This document shows positions 12,093 to 49,431 of a stretch of 64,000 bases of DNA, in pieces; position 1 is the first letter of the stretch, and each line of letters starts with the position of its first letter. The notes beneath the pieces were generated by a model that ran no database searches, had not been told where the DNA came from, and worked only from the letters and a program-made list of their open reading frames with translations. Source of the stretch: Solibacteraceae bacterium (GTDB taxonomy: Bacteria > Acidobacteriota > Terriglobia > Bryobacterales > Bryobacteraceae); NCBI GenBank assembly GCA_021324015.1, contig JAJPJX010000087.1:62001-126000 (forward strand), read 5' to 3'. The position numbers and the translations under genes were made by a program.

Positions 12093-13331
12093 TTACTTGA
12101 CAGCGGCGCCGGCCGGGGTCAGAACGGAATTCATGATGGTCTCGAATTCCGCGCCCGTGAGCAGGCGCTTGTGCTCGATGGAAAACTGCTTGACGCGGGC
12201 CAGGATGTCGTTGGCCTGCTCCGGGGTGGCCTGGATGCCGCGGCGTTCCAGGTGCTCTTCGATATTCGCCAGGCCGCTGCCCTTGCCCAGCGCGATGTCC
12301 ACTCCCGGCCGCCCCACCATCTCCGGCGCGAAGGGGATGTATTCGAGCGGCTCGACCTTCCGGCAGCGGCGATGGAACATGCTGACGATGCCGGATTCGA
12401 TGTAATACAGCGAATCGCCCACGATGGGCCGATTGGGCGGCACTTCGAAGCCGGCGAGCTGTTGCACCAGCTTGGAGAGCTCGTAGAGCTTCTCGGTGCG
12501 GATCCCCATATCCACGCCGTACATGGTGCGCAGCGCCATCACGGTGTCTTCCAGCGGGACGTTGCCGGCGCGCTCGCCGGTGGCGGAAATCGTGACGTGG
12601 GCCACCGAAGCACCGGCGGCCAGCGCGGCGACCGTGTTAGCCACGCCCAGGCCGAAATCCTCATGGCAGTGGATTTCGATGGGCACGTGGAACCGCTCCC
12701 GCAGCTTGCCGATCACAAAGGAAATCGCCTGCGGCGTGCATCCGCCGAAAGAGTCCGCCAGGGTCATGGCGTCCATGTGGCCTTCGGTGGCCACTTTCTC
12801 GATCAGGTCCATCAGGCGGTTCAACTCCGAGCGCGTACTGTCGATGGTGAAGAACACGGTGTACAGGCCGGCTTCCTTGGCCGCCAGGGTGGTCTCCACT
12901 GACGACTTCATGGCCCAGTCCATGTCCTTGCCGTAGGCATTCTTGATGATGTGGTCGCTCGAGGGGATCTCGGTGATGATGCCCTTGACGCCGCACTCCT
13001 TTGCCAGTTTCACGTCTGCGGGCATGCAGCGCGCGAACGAAAAGATCTCCGCGGGCAGGCCCAGCGCCACGATGTCTTTGATGGCCGCCTCATCCTCGGC
13101 GGAGACCGCGGGCATGCCGGCCTCGATGCGGTGCACTCCGGCCTCCGCCAGTTTCCTGGCGATGGCCACCTTCTCCTGCCTGCGGAATACGATTCCAGTC
13201 TGCTGCTCGCCGTCGCGCAGCGTCACGTCATGAATGCGAATTTTCTCGGGGAAATGCAACGATTCCCGAACTTCCGGGGCAAAATTCCACGGGCTGGTGA
13301 ACCATTGATCGGTCTTCCAGGGTTGGCTCAT
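12093..13331 (-). CDS. Homocitrate / isopropylmalate synthase-family enzyme
   Basis: Claisen-condensing HMGL-type TIM barrel of 412 residues. The metal and active-site block is IHDVTLRDGEQQTG, the substrate loop is HRIEAGMPAVS, the metal-binding HxH region is IEIHCHEDFGLGVANT, and a GERAGNVPLED block follows. The C-terminal communication region (about 285-390) has PIVGDSLYYIESG and LGKGSGLANIEEHL, but the LeuA leucine-binding domain is missing, arguing against feedback-regulated isopropylmalate synthase. The start ATG 13331 has SD AAGGAG 7 nt upstream. It pairs with the acyl-phosphate transferase gene downstream. The exact condensation partner (2-oxoglutarate, pyruvate, oxaloacetate or other) is not readable. 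Confidence 0.75.
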   Translation of the reverse strand: MSQPWKTDQWFTSPWNFAPEVRESLHFPEKIRIHDVTLRDGEQQTGIVFRRQEKVAIARKLAEAGVHRIEAGMPAVSAEDEAAIKDIVALGLPAEIFSFARCMPADVKLAKECGVKGIITEIPSSDHIIKNAYGKDMDWAMKSSVETTLAAKEAGLYTVFFTIDSTRSELNRLMDLIEKVATEGHMDAMTLADSFGGCTPQAISFVIGKLRERFHVPIEIHCHEDFGLGVANTVAALAAGASVAHVTISATGERAGNVPLEDTVMALRTMYGVDMGIRTEKLYELSKLVQQLAGFEVPPNRPIVGDSLYYIESGIVSMFHRRCRKVEPLEYIPFAPEMVGRPGVDIALGKGSGLANIEEHLERRGIQATPEQANDILARVKQFSIEHKRLLTGAEFETIMNSVLTPAGAAVK

Positions 13332-13390
13332 GTATTGACTCCTTGGGTTCGAAACCCGCACGAAATCATATGATAACAGCCCGTGGCTTT

Positions 13391-13710
13391 ACAAGTTCGG
13401 CCGCGTAGCCGATGGTGTCGTCACTGATCGGCCCGATCCGCCTGGCCAGAATTGCACGGCAGCACTCAGCTTCGATCTGCAACAGGCTGGAATCCGCACG
13501 GCGGCTCCCAGGAAGACGGCCTCAAACACATTCTGCCAGGGATGGGTGGGAAACTGACGACCTTCCGGCAGTACCTGTGCCCGTTGAGAGAAGTCGAACA
13601 CCTTGTCCAAGTAGGCCTCGAACCGGCGCCAGAGGCTCTTGCTTGCCGATGTATTTGCAGTACAGGAACAGCAGGAATATGGGAGGCCGAGGGCTTACCA
13701 CACCAGCCAT
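13391..13710 (-). pseudogene. Transposase-like N-terminal fragment, two frameshifts
   Basis: Three reading-frame pieces on the minus strand join into one protein-like stretch: FLLFLYCKYIG, then after a frameshift SLWRRFEAYLDKVFDFSQ and THPWQNVFEAVFLGAAVRIP, then after a second frameshift SLLQIEAECCRAILARRIGP and ISDDTIGYAAELVK. The helical, Arg-rich pattern with DTIGYA resembles the N-terminus of DDE transposases found in Acidobacteriota (recollection, not a search). The catalytic part is missing: the fragment ends abruptly at about 13391, 60 bp upstream of the synthase gene. It is non-functional in any case. Confidence 0.5.
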
Positions 13711-40781: not shown

Positions 40782-41813
40782 TCAGGGCTGCATGGGCAGC
40801 TTGCCCGTGGCGCGCAAGTTCTCAAGCAGGGGCTTGAGATCGTATCCGCAGACCGTGCAGCGTTCCGTGGAAACCGGGATCATACGCGTGCAATTGGGAC
40901 AGACCACGCGCAGGTATTGCAGGTACGACCAGGCGGCATCCCAGGTCTGCTTTTCCTGCGGGCGCAGGTTGGTAATCTCCCAGATGCCGGCGCGGTACAG
41001 ATCGAAAATGGCTTTGAAGAGCTCGCCGTTTTCGCGGTGGAAAGGCAGCGAGAAGCGATAGAAGCCATAGCCGGCGAGCCACCAGCCCAGCGCGGCCAAG
41101 GCCGCCCATCCGGGCCCGCCGGCAGGCGGCGTGAACCGCCACAGGCCCGCCACCGCCGCAGCGGACTCAGCCAGCCAGAGCACGCCGCCCGCGAGGCAGA
41201 TGGCGGAGAGCAGCAGGAAGCCGTCCGCCACGGACCACTGGCTGTCAATGGCCTCTTTCTTTTCCTTCTCCATTTGCAGCCAGATACGCGGCCAGTAGAA
41301 AACCGAGTCCATGCCGTAGCGATTGTCGGGGTATTGCTCGTAGCCCGCCAGGATGTTGCCGAGCAGCGTGGGGCGGTACACATAGGGTTCACCCTGCTCG
41401 TTAATGGGGTAGAGCCGGAGCTGATACCAGGCTTCGTCGTAGCGGGCGGTGTCGCCCGCGCGGCGCGCGGTCTCCGCCTTTTGGCGAAACCTCCGCAGGC
41501 GGGCCTCCTGCAAGCGCTCGCCCCACCGCAGCAGGCGATCCGGCCAGAATATCCGCCCCTCGTAGATCTTGTAGATCTCGCTGGTCAGGGTGGAGATCAG
41601 GGCGCCGATCACGAACACGCAGACAGCGAAAGCCGCGAAGCGCTGCCAAATCTGCTCGGCGTTCGCGGGCAAACGGCCCAGCAGCCAGGCGACGGTGGGG
41701 TAGAGCACGGCGCTCGCCAGCGCGCCGGGCAGAACCACGCGCATGAAGATGGGGAAACGGACCAGCAGTCCCTTCTCGACGGCTCCTTTAGCGGCCTCAA
41801 ACGGGAGTTCCAT
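40782..41813 (-). CDS. Four-helix membrane protein with C-terminal zinc ribbon (unknown function)
   Basis: 343 residues. Helices at about 25-48, 62-85, 200-225 and 232-258. Between the pairs lies a charged cytoplasmic loop with helix RLQEARLRRFRQKAETARRA and the block YRPTLLGNILAGYEQYPDNR followed by YGMDSVFYWPRIW. This LGN-x-L-x4-E-x-YP-x2-RYG-x-D-x3-WPR pattern is, from memory, shared by uncharacterised membrane proteins of actinobacteria and cyanobacteria. The tail has CPNC ... CTVCG, a zinc ribbon. Last gene of a three-gene run (gaps 7 and 15 bp). Confidence 0.75.
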   Translation of the reverse strand: MELPFEAAKGAVEKGLLVRFPIFMRVVLPGALASAVLYPTVAWLLGRLPANAEQIWQRFAAFAVCVFVIGALISTLTSEIYKIYEGRIFWPDRLLRWGERLQEARLRRFRQKAETARRAGDTARYDEAWYQLRLYPINEQGEPYVYRPTLLGNILAGYEQYPDNRYGMDSVFYWPRIWLQMEKEKKEAIDSQWSVADGFLLLSAICLAGGVLWLAESAAAVAGLWRFTPPAGGPGWAALAALGWWLAGYGFYRFSLPFHRENGELFKAIFDLYRAGIWEITNLRPQEKQTWDAAWSYLQYLRVVCPNCTRMIPVSTERCTVCGYDLKPLLENLRATGKLPMQP

Positions 41814-41828
41814 GCGCTCTCGGGCCGC

Positions 41829-42212
41829 TTAGGGAATTCGGGGACCTTTGCCGGGACCGTGCGGTCCCACGGACAGAAAGTTGCCCAGGAAATCGTCCAG
41901 GCCGCGCAGAGCCGACTGGCCTCCGCCTCCCGGAACATCGATATAGTAATACGAGCCGCCGCGTCGCAGGGTCCCGACCGAGTCGATCCACTGCGCCCAC
42001 AGACGGTCATAAATGTGCCGGTCCTCGAGGGACACCGCAGGCGACAAGCCAAACTGCGAGTACAGCATTTGGATTCGCTGGACCACGTTTAGCCACTCGC
42101 GGATCTTTTCGAGATCGGCGGCTGACGCTCCTCCCGGTTGCTGCTGCATATAGACGAGCAGATCCTGGAGTGTGCGTGCGACATTGAAGGTCAGATCTTT
42201 CCAGTCCGGCAT
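41829..42212 (-). CDS. Small soluble protein of unknown function in a membrane operon
   Basis: 127 residues, no signal peptide. Helical N-terminal half (LTFNVARTLQDLLVYMQQQP, DLEKIREWLNVVQRIQMLYS) and a Gly-rich C-terminal half (RRGGSYYYIDVPGGGGQSAL). I do not recognise the family. Its close spacing (7 bp from the upstream gene, 15 bp from the downstream one) makes it an operon member, perhaps a soluble subunit for the two membrane proteins. Confidence 0.7.
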   Translation of the reverse strand: MPDWKDLTFNVARTLQDLLVYMQQQPGGASAADLEKIREWLNVVQRIQMLYSQFGLSPAVSLEDRHIYDRLWAQWIDSVGTLRRGGSYYYIDVPGGGGQSALRGLDDFLGNFLSVGPHGPGKGPRIP

Positions 42213-42219
42213 GGTTGCC

Positions 42220-43566
42220 TCAGGTGACGTTGAAGTTGAAAGGCGCCGATGCGTGCCCGCCGGGATTGGTGACTACGGCCTGGCATGCCCCGGCGTTGGC
42301 CAGGATGGCACTCACGACCACCCTGGTCGAGCCAACCGACGTGACGGTCACATTGGCCGGCGCAGCCGCGCCGGCCAACTGCACCGTCAGGCCATTCATG
42401 AAGCCGTCTCCGACGAGCGCCAGGTTTTGGGCAGCCGCATTGTGAATCGGGGCTGCGGGATCGACGGCCAGGATGCTGGGCGGCCCGAACACCGTGAAGC
42501 GGAGCGCATCCGAAGGGGCCCCTCCGGGATTCGTCACAAAAGCCTGCCACTCGCCGGGTTGGTCGAGGACGGCATTGGTCTGAACCAGAGTCTTGGAGAC
42601 GGAGGTGATGCTGCCTCCGGTCAGCACATGCCGGGTCCCGTGCGGATCGGTCAAGGCGACCGACAGGCCGCGCTCGAATCCCGAACCGGTGAGGTTCACC
42701 TGCTGCGCGGCTGCGGCCACCGCCGGCGCCGCCGGCACGATTCCGGTGATAGCGGCTCCCCCGGCCGCCTGCTCGGCGCCGCCGCCCTCCGGGGCCGTCG
42801 GATTCGACGGGCTGAAGACTTCGCGCAACTGGTTGGCCAGGTAGGGGGCAAACAGGCAGGCGGAACCGAACAGGAAGTTGCGGACCTGCGAAAGATCGGT
42901 CACGGTTCCGTAAAGGAAAAGCTGCCAGATGACAGCGTAGCCCACCCCGAGCACGGTGGTCAGAATACCCAGCAGCCCAAGAAGGGCGATGAGGCGGCTG
43001 GCGCTGGCCACCATGACCACGTCTTTCTTGTTGTTGATCACGGCGGGCTGCTGGCTGGATTCTTCGGAGACCACATCGCCGGGAGACCATCCCTGGAAGG
43101 TGGCGATCACCAGGCCGACTGCTACAGCGATCAGGAGCGCCACGACCAATTTGGTGATGACACCGGCGGCGTTCTGGTAGGCCGCGACCGCCGGGGAATC
43201 CGGCGGAACGGCGGGGGAAGCGGCTACTTTGAGCGTGGCGGCGGCGGACGGTGCTCCGCCGGGGTTCTGGACGGTGATCTTCCAGTCACCCACCGCGCCG
43301 AAGGAAGCGGTCACCTCCAGTTGCGTGGCGCTCAGCCGTTTAATCGCTGCCGCGGGCAGGGGCGTGGACTTTCCGGAGGGATCGGTGAGGTTCGCGGTGG
43401 CGCCCTCCTGAAAATCGGCGCCGGTGAGCAACAGCTTCTGGTTGGGCCCCAGCGGCACGACTTGCGACGCCGCACTGGCGACGCTGGGCGTGGGAGCGTC
43501 CGGTTTCGCGGCCGGCGTCCATGCGGCCAAACACAAGCCGACCACGAGAGCTGCAGCGTTTCTCAT
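42220..43566 (-). CDS. Membrane protein with three IPT/TIG-like domains
   Basis: 448 residues with SD GGAG and signal peptide MRNAAALVVGLCLAAW. One TIG-like Ig domain is at about 25-112 (NQKLLLTGADFQEGATANLT). TM1 is at about 134-156, then a short loop, TM2 at about 190-215 and a third hydrophobic stretch VRNFLFGSACLFAPYLANQL. Two more TIG-like domains make up residues about 270-448 (LTGSGFERGLSVALTDPHG and LVGDGFMNGLTVQLAGAA), each ending in TNPGG. Having TIG domains on both sides of a membrane block is unusual. First gene of the operon with 41829 and 40782. Confidence 0.72.
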   Translation of the reverse strand: MRNAAALVVGLCLAAWTPAAKPDAPTPSVASAASQVVPLGPNQKLLLTGADFQEGATANLTDPSGKSTPLPAAAIKRLSATQLEVTASFGAVGDWKITVQNPGGAPSAAATLKVAASPAVPPDSPAVAAYQNAAGVITKLVVALLIAVAVGLVIATFQGWSPGDVVSEESSQQPAVINNKKDVVMVASASRLIALLGLLGILTTVLGVGYAVIWQLFLYGTVTDLSQVRNFLFGSACLFAPYLANQLREVFSPSNPTAPEGGGAEQAAGGAAITGIVPAAPAVAAAAQQVNLTGSGFERGLSVALTDPHGTRHVLTGGSITSVSKTLVQTNAVLDQPGEWQAFVTNPGGAPSDALRFTVFGPPSILAVDPAAPIHNAAAQNLALVGDGFMNGLTVQLAGAAAPANVTVTSVGSTRVVVSAILANAGACQAVVTNPGGHASAPFNFNVT

Positions 43567-44536: not shown

Positions 44537-45331
44537 CTATTTTCGGACGGCCCGCTGGAGGACCTCCTCCGGCAGGCCGTGCCGCGGGCCCACGTGGTTG
44601 AACTCTTCTCCGTAGCGGAAGCCGTGCTTTTTTCCGATGGCCTCCGCCAGCGCGGTAAGATACTCGCGCGAGGGCGTCTCCGGCGAGGCGCGCAGGGCGT
44701 CCAGCGCTTCCAGTTTGCGCGAGAAGGTGGCGGTGATGTCCACGGATCGGAAGACGGCTCCGCCCTCGCCGCCTTCGCCAGGGCGATATGCCCGGGCCAC
44801 GGCGTAGTAGTAGACCTCCGGGGCCCCGTAGGGCGCCAGTCCTTCGCGCGCCAGTTCCGGCCCGAACGTGCCGCCGCCGCTGTAGCCCCAAGCCTCCTCG
44901 GCCATCTTGCCGGCGTAGTAGTGGTCGCGGTCCGGATCGTAGTGGATGTAGGGATCGGGAAGCACGATGATCCGCGGCTTGAAGTAGCGGATCAGCCCGA
45001 ACATCTCTTCGCGTAGTTCGGTGCTGGAGATATAGCCGAGTTCGCCGCTTTTGTGCCCCAGGAAAAGCACTTCGCGCGCGCCCAGCCGGCGCGCGGCCTC
45101 GTGGGCCCCGTCGGCATTGGCTTTCTGGGTCTCCGCAGGCCCCAGACCGTGCGAGTATTTCTCGTCGTTGGTCACCTGCACCACGGTGACCTCGGCCCCC
45201 TCGCCGATCCAACGGGCCAGCGTGCCGCCCGCCCCTGAGAGGTAGTCGCCCGCATGCGCCGTGACCACCAGCACCTGGTCGGCGGCCCATGCCGGCACGG
45301 TCAGAAGCACAGCGGCGAGAATCAGGACCAT
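44537..45331 (-). CDS. Exported PIG-L/LmbE-family deacetylase
   Basis: 264 residues from ATG 45331 (an in-frame GTG/ATG lies up to 45352). Signal peptide MVLILAAVLLTVPAWA. Metal site: first motif TAHAGDYLSGAGG (AHxGD variant of AHPDD; His26, Asp29 in this numbering) and third ligand region YDPDRDHYYAG. VLFLGHKSGELGY and FKPRIIVLPDPYIHYD are typical. Expected reaction: zinc-dependent N-deacetylation of a GlcNAc-like substrate. TATGAT (45346-45341) lies 9 nt before the ATG, back-to-back with the divergent PIG-L gene, with which it shares sequence. Confidence 0.85.
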   Translation of the reverse strand: MVLILAAVLLTVPAWAADQVLVVTAHAGDYLSGAGGTLARWIGEGAEVTVVQVTNDEKYSHGLGPAETQKANADGAHEAARRLGAREVLFLGHKSGELGYISSTELREEMFGLIRYFKPRIIVLPDPYIHYDPDRDHYYAGKMAEEAWGYSGGGTFGPELAREGLAPYGAPEVYYYAVARAYRPGEGGEGGAVFRSVDITATFSRKLEALDALRASPETPSREYLTALAEAIGKKHGFRYGEEFNHVGPRHGLPEEVLQRAVRK

Positions 45332-45340
45332 CGTGATAGC

Positions 45341-45350
45341 ATCATATACC
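45341..45350. promoter_or_regulatory. Shared AT block serving two divergent genes
   Basis: On the minus strand TATGAT (45346-45341) precedes ATG 45331 by 9 nt; on the plus strand CATATA (45343-45348) precedes ATG 45355 by 6 nt. Only 23 bp separate the two start codons. The -10 elements overlap by four bases, so the two genes cannot be initiated at the same time. Confidence 0.45.
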
Positions 45351-45354
45351 ACCG

Positions 45355-47001
45355 ATGCGAACCGCTCTCGTGGTGCTGGCTGTTGTGTGCCCGTTGTGGG
45401 CGCGCCTGCCGTTGGGGAAGGTGCCGCCGGGCAAGACGTTCCTGGTCGTGCTGCCGCACCACGACGATCACACCTGGGACTACGGTTTCGGGGGGCTGAT
45501 CGCCAAGTTCACCGACGCGGGGTACGCCGGCTACTACGTGCGCATGACCAACGACGAGAAGGATGGCGCGCTGGGCTGGGCCGGCAACAACGAGATCAAC
45601 TACAAGGAATGCCTGGAGGCGGTGCGCTTCCTGGGAATGAAGGACGTGATCAGCCTGAACTGGCGGAACGACCACAGCGATTCAGTCCCGGCCAACGAGA
45701 TCCGCGCGCAGTTGATCCTGCTGATCCGCAAATACCGCCCCCAAGCCGTGATGGCGTACGATCCGTGGGGCCATTACGACCGCAATCCCGATCACCGCAA
45801 AAGCGCGCGGGCCGTGGCGGACGCGATTTGGGCCGCGGGCGATCCGGACATCCTGCCGGAGCAGGCCGAACTGGGCCTCAAGCCCTGGCGCGTGCCCTAC
45901 CAATACTATTCGCAGCGCAGCGATTACGGCTACGGATACACCCCCAATATCGCCTTCGAGCTGAACGAAAGCCAGATGGCGCGCAAGGCCAAAGCGTACT
46001 GGATGAACCGCAACGTGCGCTTGCAGCCGTCGCTCGGCCGGGGCATCCGCGCGGAACTGGCGCGGGAGAACCTGACCATCCCGGAACTGGAAGGCCTGAG
46101 CGATCTCGAAGCCACCCAAAAGCTCCAGGAGTGGCGCATGTACTGGATCTCGGAAAAGCGCGGCCGGGAGAACGGGGTGAAGTACGCCGAGGTCTTCGAT
46201 TTCGTAGACGAATTCGATGATCTGCCGGCCGTGCGCGACCATCTGGCGCGCCGGACCTCGCCGCCAGAGGTTCCGGCGGGTGCGGCGCTGCCGCAGGGGA
46301 GCGCGCTGGTGGTCACCACGTATGCCGAGGACTACCTGCTCTCGGCGGGAGGCACGCTGGCCCGCATGATTCAGGGCGGCGCGCCGGTCTATGTGCTAAC
46401 CGTCATTGCAGACGGCCACTCCGTGGAAAGCGACGCGGCGGGGCACGCGCTGGGCGTGAAGCAGGTCATCTCGCTGGGGTATCGGAAAGGCGAGCTGCCG
46501 GCGGTTTCGCCGACCGAACTGCGCGACCGCATCCTGTTCCAGATCCGGCGCCTGAAGCCGCGCGTATTGTTCATCCCGAATCCTTACACGCATCACGAGG
46601 GCCGGCTGGATCGCCTGTACGCGGGCAGCGCGGCCGAAGAGGCGCGCCTGGCCGCGGGACTGGCCAATTTCGAACCGCCGTTCGCACTGGCCGGCCTCGC
46701 GCCCTATGCAGCCCGGGAGCTGTATTACTATTCGCTGCCCCTCGACCCGGAAACGCTGCGGCCGGAAGCCGACGCGCCCTTTGTGCCGCAGCCGGCGGCG
46801 TTCGATATCCGCGCTATGATGCCCCGCAAGCTTGCTGCCGTGCTGGCGCTCAAGACCGCCAATGCGGCCGTCGCGCGCGACGTGGAGCAGCGTCTCGCGC
46901 GCACCGGAAGGAAGCTGGACGACGCCTCGGGCGAGGCGGTGGCCAGGATCCGGGTGAGCGGCCTGGGGACCACGGAGAGCTTCCTGCGCGCCGCCCGCTG
47001 A
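45355..47001 (+). CDS. Tandem PIG-L protein: active first domain, degenerate second
   Basis: 548 residues with signal peptide MRTALVVLAVVCPLWA. Domain 1 (about 28-290) has PHHDDHTWDYGFGG (H36, D37, D38) and NPDHRKSARAV (H147), consistent with a working deacetylase. Domain 2 (about 315-480) matches the neighbouring PIG-L protein in order and spacing (LLSAGGTLARM, YRKGELPAVSPTEL, LYAGSAAEEAR, GLAPYAARELYYYS), but its metal residues are gone: TTYAED for TAHAGD and GRLDR for DRDHY. It is divergent from that neighbour, so domain 2 probably arose by copying it. Confidence 0.82.
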   Translation: MRTALVVLAVVCPLWARLPLGKVPPGKTFLVVLPHHDDHTWDYGFGGLIAKFTDAGYAGYYVRMTNDEKDGALGWAGNNEINYKECLEAVRFLGMKDVISLNWRNDHSDSVPANEIRAQLILLIRKYRPQAVMAYDPWGHYDRNPDHRKSARAVADAIWAAGDPDILPEQAELGLKPWRVPYQYYSQRSDYGYGYTPNIAFELNESQMARKAKAYWMNRNVRLQPSLGRGIRAELARENLTIPELEGLSDLEATQKLQEWRMYWISEKRGRENGVKYAEVFDFVDEFDDLPAVRDHLARRTSPPEVPAGAALPQGSALVVTTYAEDYLLSAGGTLARMIQGGAPVYVLTVIADGHSVESDAAGHALGVKQVISLGYRKGELPAVSPTELRDRILFQIRRLKPRVLFIPNPYTHHEGRLDRLYAGSAAEEARLAAGLANFEPPFALAGLAPYAARELYYYSLPLDPETLRPEADAPFVPQPAAFDIRAMMPRKLAAVLALKTANAAVARDVEQRLARTGRKLDDASGEAVARIRVSGLGTTESFLRAAR

Positions 47002-47109: not shown

Positions 47110-49431
47110 TTAGGGCAGGCCGAAAGCCACCACGTTGGAGCCGGCGCTCAGCGCGACATATTGCCTGCCTTCCACGCTGTACGTGATGGGCGAGGCCGAG
47201 ATGCGCTGGCCGTTGTTAAAGTGCCAGAGTGCTTTGCCAGTGCGGGCGTCGAGCGCGGTCAGCACGCCCTGGTCATCGCCGGCGAAAATCAGGCCGCCCG
47301 CCGTCGATAGCAGGCCCGCGCCATAGCTCCGCGAACCGATCTGCGGGTAGTCCCACTGGAGCTTCCCGGTGGTCAGATCCAGGGCGCGCACGTGCATTTC
47401 CCAGGGCTCCTCGGGGCTTTCGATGTAGCCGGTCGCCATGAAGGGATGGCCGCCCGGCTGGAAGCTGTCCGCCGACTTGGTGTTGATGCCGCAGCCCTCC
47501 ATGGCTACCACGTAGAACCAGTTGGTCTCCGGATTGTATGCCGGGGACATCCAATTGGTGGCGCCCGCGGTGGCCGGGCACACCTTGGTGCCCTGCAGGC
47601 TGGGCTCCACGCCGGGCACGCGCATGGGACGCCCGTCCTCGGCCAAGCCGGAGGCCCAGTTGATCCGCTGAACGAACGGCGTGCCGTGCAGGAACCGGCC
47701 GCTGGTGCGGTCCAGCACGTAATAAAAACCGTTGCGGTTGGCCTGCACCAGCAGTTTGCGCGGCCGGCCCTGGTAGGGCGCATCCACCAGGATAGGGATC
47801 TCCACGGAGTCCCAATCGTAGACGTCGTGGGGTGTGAACTGGAAATACCACTGCAATCTTCCGGAGTCCGCGTCGAGCGCCACCATGCATTCTGTGTACA
47901 GGTTGTCGCCCATGCGGGAATCGCCGTTGAAATCCGGCGCGGGGTTGCCGATCCCCCAGTAAATCAGGTTGAGCTGCGGGTCGTAACTGCCCGTGAGCCA
48001 GGTGTCGCCGCCGCCGGTTTTCCAGGAGTCGCCTGGCCACGTCTGGCTGCCCGGCTCGCCGGGGCGCGGGACGGCCCACCAGCGCCACAGGCGCTTGCCG
48101 GTTTGGGCGTCATAGGCGTCCAGCCATCCGTTCAGGCCGTGGTCGCCCGGCGCGATGCCCACGATGATCCTGTCTTTCAGCGCCAGCGGCGCCACCGGGC
48201 ACCAGTAGCCGTCCTTGGGGTCGGCCATCTGAACGTCCCAGAGCAGGTTGCCGGTCAGCGCGTCGAGGGCCACCAGGTGCGCGTCCGGAGTGCCAAAGTA
48301 CACCCGGCTGCCGTAGACCGCCACCCCGCGATTCGGGCCGCGGTGCAGCGCGGGCTGGCGGTGATGCTCCCAGATGAGGCGTCCGGTGCGGGCGTCCAGG
48401 GCGTAGACTTCGTTAGGCTGGGAAACGTACATCACACCGTCCACCACCACGGGCACGCTCTCCAGGCGCTGTGCTCCGGGCACATGAAAGATCCACCGGG
48501 GCGCCAGCGCATGCACGTTGCGAATGTCGATCTGCTTCAGCAGGCTGTGCCGCTGGGAATTGTAGGAGCCGTTGTAACTGATCCAGTTGGCCGGGGTGGG
48601 GCGCAGCAGATCCGGGAAAGACAGGCCGGCCGGGCGGGCCACGGTGGAGGACAGAGTGGGGCCGGAGTCCCGGGTCAGGCGGGCCAGGAAAGCCAGCAGA
48701 TCCTGGATCTCCCCGGCGCTCAAAGAATCGGCGGCTACCGGCATCAGGGGGCGCGGCTCGTAGGCCAGTTCGCGCAGTTCGCCGCGGGCAAACAGGTGCA
48801 GCTTGCCGGCCGTGTCCACAAACTGCACGGAAAAATTGTTCTCGTTGCGCACGATGCCGCGCAGCGTGCGGCCCTGCGCGGTGACCACGTGCGCGGCGCG
48901 ATACCCGCGGGCGTGATTGGGCCGGGGCTTGGTGAGCACGTCGCGCAGGAAGTTCAGGCTGCGCTCGCGGGCGATGTTGGAAAGGTCCGGCCCCAGGAAG
49001 CCGCCGCTGCCGCGCACCGTGTGACATTCGAGGCACCGGCCCTTGCCGCGGAAAATCTCCCCGCCGCGCACCCGGTCACCCTCGACCGGAGAGTCGATGG
49101 CCGTCGCCCGCAGGCTGCGAATGTAAGCCACCACGCTCCAGACGTCGTTCTCCGGCATGCTGAAGGGCGGCATCAGGGTGCCCGGGATGCCGTTGCGAAT
49201 GGCGTCGAACAGGTCGCGGTCGCTCGAACGCAGATAGCGGCGCGCGGCAGCCAGGGCCGGCGCCCGGTCGCCCACGGTGCCGTTCAGCCCGTGACACATA
49301 GTGCACGCGCGGTTGTAAATTTCGTGGCCTTTTTCGATCACGCTGGGATCGTTTCCCAGCGGATTACCCGCACGCTGAGCCCAGGCGCAGCACGCGCCGA
49401 GCCAGAGAATCAACCATCGACGGCGAAACAT
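47110..49431 (-). CDS. PQQ-dependent alcohol dehydrogenase with two cytochrome c domains
   Basis: 773 residues, periplasmic (MFRRRWLILWLGACCAWAQ). Two heme c sites: CTMCH (C43, C46, H47) and CLECH (C133, C136, H137); the second domain, with GGFLGPDLSNIA and GRTLRGIVRNENNFSVQFVD, resembles the Pirellula-type heme-binding domain. Residues about 270-773 are the eight-bladed quinoprotein propeller with GGGDTWLTGSYDPQLNLIYW and FTPHDVYDWDSVEIP. The active-site Asp539 is followed two residues later by Asp541, the pattern linked to lanthanide-using PQQ dehydrogenases. GATAAA lies 11 nt before ATG 49431. Confidence 0.85.
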   Translation of the reverse strand: MFRRRWLILWLGACCAWAQRAGNPLGNDPSVIEKGHEIYNRACTMCHGLNGTVGDRAPALAAARRYLRSSDRDLFDAIRNGIPGTLMPPFSMPENDVWSVVAYIRSLRATAIDSPVEGDRVRGGEIFRGKGRCLECHTVRGSGGFLGPDLSNIARERSLNFLRDVLTKPRPNHARGYRAAHVVTAQGRTLRGIVRNENNFSVQFVDTAGKLHLFARGELRELAYEPRPLMPVAADSLSAGEIQDLLAFLARLTRDSGPTLSSTVARPAGLSFPDLLRPTPANWISYNGSYNSQRHSLLKQIDIRNVHALAPRWIFHVPGAQRLESVPVVVDGVMYVSQPNEVYALDARTGRLIWEHHRQPALHRGPNRGVAVYGSRVYFGTPDAHLVALDALTGNLLWDVQMADPKDGYWCPVAPLALKDRIIVGIAPGDHGLNGWLDAYDAQTGKRLWRWWAVPRPGEPGSQTWPGDSWKTGGGDTWLTGSYDPQLNLIYWGIGNPAPDFNGDSRMGDNLYTECMVALDADSGRLQWYFQFTPHDVYDWDSVEIPILVDAPYQGRPRKLLVQANRNGFYYVLDRTSGRFLHGTPFVQRINWASGLAEDGRPMRVPGVEPSLQGTKVCPATAGATNWMSPAYNPETNWFYVVAMEGCGINTKSADSFQPGGHPFMATGYIESPEEPWEMHVRALDLTTGKLQWDYPQIGSRSYGAGLLSTAGGLIFAGDDQGVLTALDARTGKALWHFNNGQRISASPITYSVEGRQYVALSAGSNVVAFGLP

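Follow-up and report, generated by a model that had tools for sequence, protein, structure and literature searches.

A three-gene membrane locus of Bryobacteraceae and its link to a widespread protein family recurrently encoded beside CHAT peptidases

What is the function of three closely spaced genes that encode TIG-like repeats, a four-transmembrane (TM) protein and a zinc ribbon, and no recognizable enzyme? The genes lie on the reverse strand of a 64,000-nucleotide stretch of DNA from a Solibacteraceae bacterium (referred to here as the window). Gene A (42220–43566, 448 amino acids [aa]) encodes a signal-like N-terminal segment, a TIG-like repeat, a membrane module and two further TIG-like repeats; gene B (41829–42212, 127 aa) encodes a small, soluble and fast-evolving protein without a known family; and gene C (40782–41813, 343 aa) encodes a four-TM protein of the widespread GN-E-YG-WPR family. 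All three are real open reading frames (ORFs), separated by 7 bp (A–B) and 15 bp (B–C). The preliminary description of the locus, as a TIG-bearing membrane protein, a small soluble protein and a four-helix protein with a conserved block and a CxxC...CxxC pair, agrees in these respects with the ORF list, the NCBIfam model NF058597 and a structural model of C. It had also stated that no recognized enzyme domain is present, and domain searches of A, B and C indeed found none, including no caspase or cNMP cyclase domain. Enzyme, defense and phage family matches were likewise absent for the three proteins in Pfam, NCBIfam, PADLOC and PHROGs. A phage origin of the trio was rejected: C had no match in phages, A, B and C had none in PHROGs, and the motif pattern of C gave 0 matches in 2.9 million viral contigs.

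On the upstream side, a CBM9 gene on the same strand ends 87 bp before A, and neither a promoter-like nor a terminator-like site was found between the two; downstream of the trio, a heparinase-like gene converges on it. Farther upstream, at 47110–49431 and 44537–47001, are a gene that combines cytochrome c with a PQQ-type quinoprotein and a pair of genes for PIG-L-like deacetylases; by eye these look ordinary. By a locally built profile, the window contains no CHAT gene, nor does the contig; the genome has five CHAT genes, all on other contigs.

The protein encoded by gene A matches NF058597 (“choice-of-anchor Z repeating domain”) in three stretches, with an E value of 3.4e-16 and 59.1 bits against a cut-off of 30. 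The first TIG-like repeat (residues 26–115; 43222–43491, reverse strand) is the point at which the alignment to the A protein of a second genome, G519, begins. It is followed by the membrane module (residues 138–252; 42811–43155, reverse strand), which has the signature GW-x-x-GD-x2-SEES ... SASRLIALLG ... LFAPYLANQ and looks like a reusable membrane anchor, and then by repeats 2 and 3 (residues 270–448; 42223–42759, reverse strand), in which the best stretch of the NF058597 match is 363–447. Two hydrophobic segments of A are clear. TIG-like repeats are common in surface proteins, and those of A suggest an outward-looking sensor, with a putative topology for the C-terminal repeats. Elsewhere in the bacterial family the A-type membrane module also occurs unaccompanied by B or C (L169:7709–8140, L203:8022–8636, L204:7971–8606 and L205:7266–8612); there it stands nearly alone, behind a collagen-like Gly-Pro-Thr stretch, or behind another outer domain near a subtilisin-like gene.

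The protein encoded by gene B lacks hydrophobic segments, cysteine and a zinc ribbon, and matches no family in Pfam or NCBIfam. Between the window and G519 it diverges much faster than its neighbors, except for a GPHGPG-x-G tail (SVGPHGPGKGPRIP; 41832–41879, reverse strand), which is conserved in the B protein of G519 and has a counterpart in another, third small protein encoded by that operon. Homology of B to the small zinc-ribbon proteins found beside relatives of C was considered but not adopted, as no similarity was found (best E value 0.23); at their N-terminal ends those proteins differ greatly from one another.

Gene C carries the conserved block PTLLGNILAGYEQYPDNRYGMDSVFYWPR (residues 148–176; 41286–41372, reverse strand), of the form PT-x2-GN-x5-E-x6-Y-x7-WPR. 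The corresponding DNA pattern occurs once in the window and in none of 100 shuffles. At the C-terminal end a zinc ribbon, CPNC-x10-CTVC (residues 303–326; 40836–40907, reverse strand), is fused to the protein and matches UPF0547 with an E value of 1.9e-5, under the gathering score; the fused ribbon is retained in the C protein of G519 (CPNCGTENAVSKQKCDSCG). Structure prediction, which the preliminary description had proposed, gave an alignment-based model of C with four long helices (residues 21–46, 52–85, 183–221 and 233–281; pLDDT 86.8, pTM 0.81), whereas a single-sequence model was poor (pLDDT 55) and was left unused. The block lies in the segment that joins helices 2 and 3, the ribbon comes last in the chain, and the stretch 86–147 is strongly basic. 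Because the number of helices is even and this stretch is positively charged, the block and the ribbon are both predicted to face the cytosol. No known fold was found for C at E ≤ 0.001 in the PDB or among viral models, a match-free outcome that is no proof of a new fold; the best VIA match had a Z score of 5.6 at an rmsd of 8.6.

To what family does C belong? Relatives were collected from the genome collection with a DNA pattern based on the motif PT-x-[L-type]-GN-x5-E-x6-[YF]-x7-WPR. The pattern matched at least 116 loci, and a C-like protein was encoded around the motif in all 116 listed. Among the matches listed are Actinomycetota, Chloroflexota, Cyanobacteriota, Pseudomonadota, Thermodesulfobacteriota and Acidobacteriota, so that the recurrence of the block in unrelated phyla, as stated in the preliminary description, is correct and extends to at least six. 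Peptide patterns for close relatives of C found none in the same collection; the motif pattern alone reached the family. Compared with a family profile built without it, the C protein of the window scored an E value of 2.6e-38; its homology to the widespread family is secure, and C is a divergent member. In 87 aligned members P148, T149, G152, N153, E159, W174, P175 and R176 are invariant, at positions fixed by the collecting pattern; E85-G86, P136, D271 and R274, which the pattern does not fix, are invariant or nearly so. Family members gave no convincing match across the core in Pfam, NCBIfam or PADLOC, and a literature search, which included the accessible parts of PMC7159879 and PMC8195603, found no published description; in the collections searched the family is undescribed. 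In the tree, C of the window sits on a long branch whose placement has no support, which leaves its descent from a CHAT-linked member unsupported. Among the matches listed, a C-terminal ribbon was not seen in the other C-like proteins encoded around the motif.

Plasmid carriage is seen among the relatives of C. Two very similar relatives on two Streptomyces plasmids (L036:7443–8906 and L037:7386–8906) have dissimilar upstream genes, one encoding a 165-residue protein and the other a TerD-family protein; these proteins have a short tail in common, as though the N-terminal portion had been exchanged. Five actinobacterial relatives (L048, L054, L077, L112 and L115) have long C-terminal extensions that appear SAF-like by eye, the one in L054 without a Pfam match, whereas acidobacterial relatives have a separate SAF-domain gene adjoining C.

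The loci of these relatives span at most 8 kb and are off-center, and the matches number at least 116, so the neighborhood fractions given here are lower bounds. CHAT genes were scored with the local profile, seeded from three annotated or Pfam-confirmed proteins; gene calling was simple and weakest in high-GC loci. Among the matches listed, a CHAT gene lies within 2.5 kb upstream on the same strand in 28 of the 70 loci that have 2.5 kb of upstream sequence (30 of 70 on either strand), compared with 4 of 62 loci downstream (Fisher p about 1e-6, a guide only, as the sequences are related). The CHAT-linked cases fall in several phyla on the tree, and for 6 of 8 annotated relatives, on plasmids of Streptomyces, Rhodococcus and Nostoc, the deposited annotation has a CHAT or caspase gene close to the C relative. 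Together with CHAT, the most frequent neighbor of C relatives is a gene, placed between the two, for a small protein whose tail resembles a zinc ribbon. By a looser count, which is in line with tails judged by eye, 38 of the 43 same-strand genes of 90–210 residues directly before C encode such a tail, compared with 51 of 260 size-matched control neighbors; a strict regular expression that demands two metal-binding pairs gives 17 of 43 and 8 of 260. One locus in the window's own bacterial family (L007) has the CHAT gene, the ribbon protein and the C relative together. In another (L206), a TPR gene and a ribbon protein precede a C relative that is incompletely covered by the ORF calls. Many relatives have no CHAT gene nearby. 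Some acidobacterial ones are paired instead with SAF-domain membrane proteins, and in this clade no CHAT gene was present in the locus stretches covered; in Chloroflexota the partners are beta-propeller-like membrane proteins (by eye), and one relative has a NACHT-like gene, again by eye, next to it. As to whether TIG proteins accompany the family, across phyla it is CHAT/caspase and zinc-ribbon, SAF-domain or beta-propeller-like proteins, and not TIG proteins, that adjoin C relatives.

How widely, then, is the trio itself conserved? Among 237 genomes of the bacterial family, a complete A-B-C set was found in 2, one of which is that of the window, and no second copy was found in 60 close relatives; any C relative at all was found in 8 of the 237. 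The second genome, G519, belongs to another genus. Its proteins are 47% (A, over 429 aa), 24% (B) and 59% (C) identical to those of the window, and its locus (L202) keeps the same order and strand. The flanks differ: in G519 a lipoprotein-like gene and then a gene for a 171-residue protein precede A. As the trio is kept in the same order despite these different flanks, A-B-C is real and conserved, but rare, and the conservation points to A-B-C as the unit. Co-conservation of the three genes thus extends to a second genus and is narrow. The idea of a “widespread but undescribed membrane complex” stands for the C family, which is widespread and has no Pfam, NCBIfam or PADLOC model, but not for the A-B-C set.

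The five-gene G519 operon that contains the trio is flanked by two direct copies of a neighboring gene (L202:7236–7940 and 12897–13602), which are 89.5% identical over 706 bp. The copies suggest that insertion or duplication took place here, as though the operon had entered the site with duplication of its target gene. The 171-residue protein of this operon (L202:11295–11810) has one hydrophobic segment and a tail, VGPxGxGxGxP, in common with B; it is possibly a second small partner or cargo.

On the reading favored here, though tentatively, A-B-C would be a TIG-sensor, protease-free variant of a membrane module that is otherwise used with CHAT/caspase peptidases, and would probably act in signaling or cell death triggered by stress or conflict, as an effector or transducer complex at the membrane. 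In its favor are the secure homology of C, the gene order kept in G519, and the CHAT and ribbon-protein neighbors of the relatives. Against it stand the lack of CHAT on the contig of the window, the dissimilarity of B to the relatives' small protein and its lack of a ribbon, the unsupported long branch of C, and the many relatives with no CHAT nearby. A-B-C would form an inner-membrane complex with C as its core. A, with its TIG-like domains outside, would sense an event at the surface or envelope, and the signal would pass through the membrane module and the cytosolic adaptor B to alter the state of C. C might in turn act on the membrane, as a gated pore or by disrupting it, or might pass the signal to a partner whose gene lies elsewhere; the output, by guilt by association, would be a stress, conflict or cell-death response. 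The fusion in the window also bears on the relatives. A ribbon is fused to C in two genera, and if the ribbons are equivalent, this suggests that the ribbon of the relatives' small protein docks on the C-family protein.

Ranked next, and a serious possibility, is that C-family proteins are not effectors but membrane anchors or receptors that hold a signaling complex at the inner membrane (with CHAT in the relatives), which would make A-B-C a housekeeping-type complex for envelope stress or surface sensing. The block, if cytosolic as predicted, could serve as a docking domain, and the diversity of partners (CHAT, caspase, SAF-domain, beta-propeller-like and NACHT-like genes), the SAF-paired acidobacterial clade and the TIG-like repeats on A all fit such a role; the patchy presence in the bacterial family, the carriage on plasmids and the repeat-flanked G519 locus are better suited to an accessory or conflict gene.

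The effector reading can also be taken further. A large undescribed class of CHAT/caspase-dependent cell-death or immune systems, spread over several phyla, would then have the GN-E-YG-WPR family as its membrane-acting effector. In the branch of the window, a TIG-bearing surface sensor would have taken the place of the protease and would act directly on the ribbon-fused effector; this extended form is considered unlikely.

Less probable still is a surface adhesion or polysaccharide-handling assembly, in which the trio would work with the CBM9, PIG-L-like and heparinase-like neighbors and C would be an anchor or channel. The CBM9 gene close upstream on the same strand, the converging heparinase-like gene and the frequency of TIG-like repeats on surface proteins would agree with it, but G519 keeps the trio behind the 171-aa protein and the lipoprotein-like gene, and elsewhere carbohydrate genes do not, as a rule, stand next to relatives of C. 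That C is a distant stator-like ion channel of the MotA/ExbB/TolQ type, with A as a partner extending into the periplasm, is very improbable: the four-TM layout with long helices reaching the cytosol resembles such channels, and the top Foldseek rows repeatedly include chains of MotA, PomA, ExbB and TolQ, but these rows all have E values above 0.5 and TM-scores of 0.15–0.31, and A has no ExbD/MotB-type Pfam match.

With its presence in at least six phyla and its repeated position beside CHAT/caspase genes, the C family is a candidate membrane target, or effector, of the caspase-like proteases of bacteria, few of whose targets are known. To this the window contributes a zinc ribbon naturally fused to the membrane protein, from which a testable contact is predicted, as well as a variant that lacks the protease and has a possible sensor of its own.

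Several known systems can be compared with the trio. Assignment of C to MotA/ExbB/TolQ (PF01618), prompted by the weak Foldseek rows, was rejected, as profile comparison with the relatives' MotA_ExbB proteins was negative (hhalign probability 0.1%) and there was no Pfam match; the VIA Z score was about 4. In Craspase, which belongs with CRISPR type III-E, a TPR-CHAT peptidase is the enzyme of a defense system (PMC9729208), and the likeness to the CHAT-linked relatives lies in the peptidase; Craspase is, however, an RNA-guided complex and not a membrane one, and no CRISPR component was noticed in the loci examined. Bacterial gasdermins are activated by proteases, and peptidases of the CHAT/caspase class serve in bacterial immunity (PMC9079055). 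Here a peptidase gene stands beside a membrane-acting protein, which provides an analogy to the CHAT-linked relatives, but C is an integral four-TM protein. Gasdermin is not among the PDB rows listed for the model of C, which is no proof against such a fold. The membrane-associated two-gene EACC1 system (System 4 of Kaur et al., 2020; PMC7159879), as described in the accessible part of that paper, combines a caspase-superfamily peptidase with a membrane component, as do the relatives of C. EACC1 has one TM segment, which is strongly conserved and bears a patch of small residues, whereas C has four TMs and another conserved block, and the window has no caspase. Closest are the unnamed operons of CHAT peptidase, zinc-ribbon protein and four-TM protein, for example on a Rhodococcus opacus plasmid (NZ_CP130954.1) and in Streptomyces goshikiensis (NZ_CP140775.1). 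They share with the window a homologous four-TM protein with the same block, a linked zinc ribbon and a small gene just upstream. The window differs in that it lacks CHAT, has the ribbon as part of C, encodes a B protein that shows no sequence similarity to the relatives' small protein, and has a TIG membrane protein in addition. Without a CHAT gene the trio is not a member of this operon type, but it may work like its membrane end.
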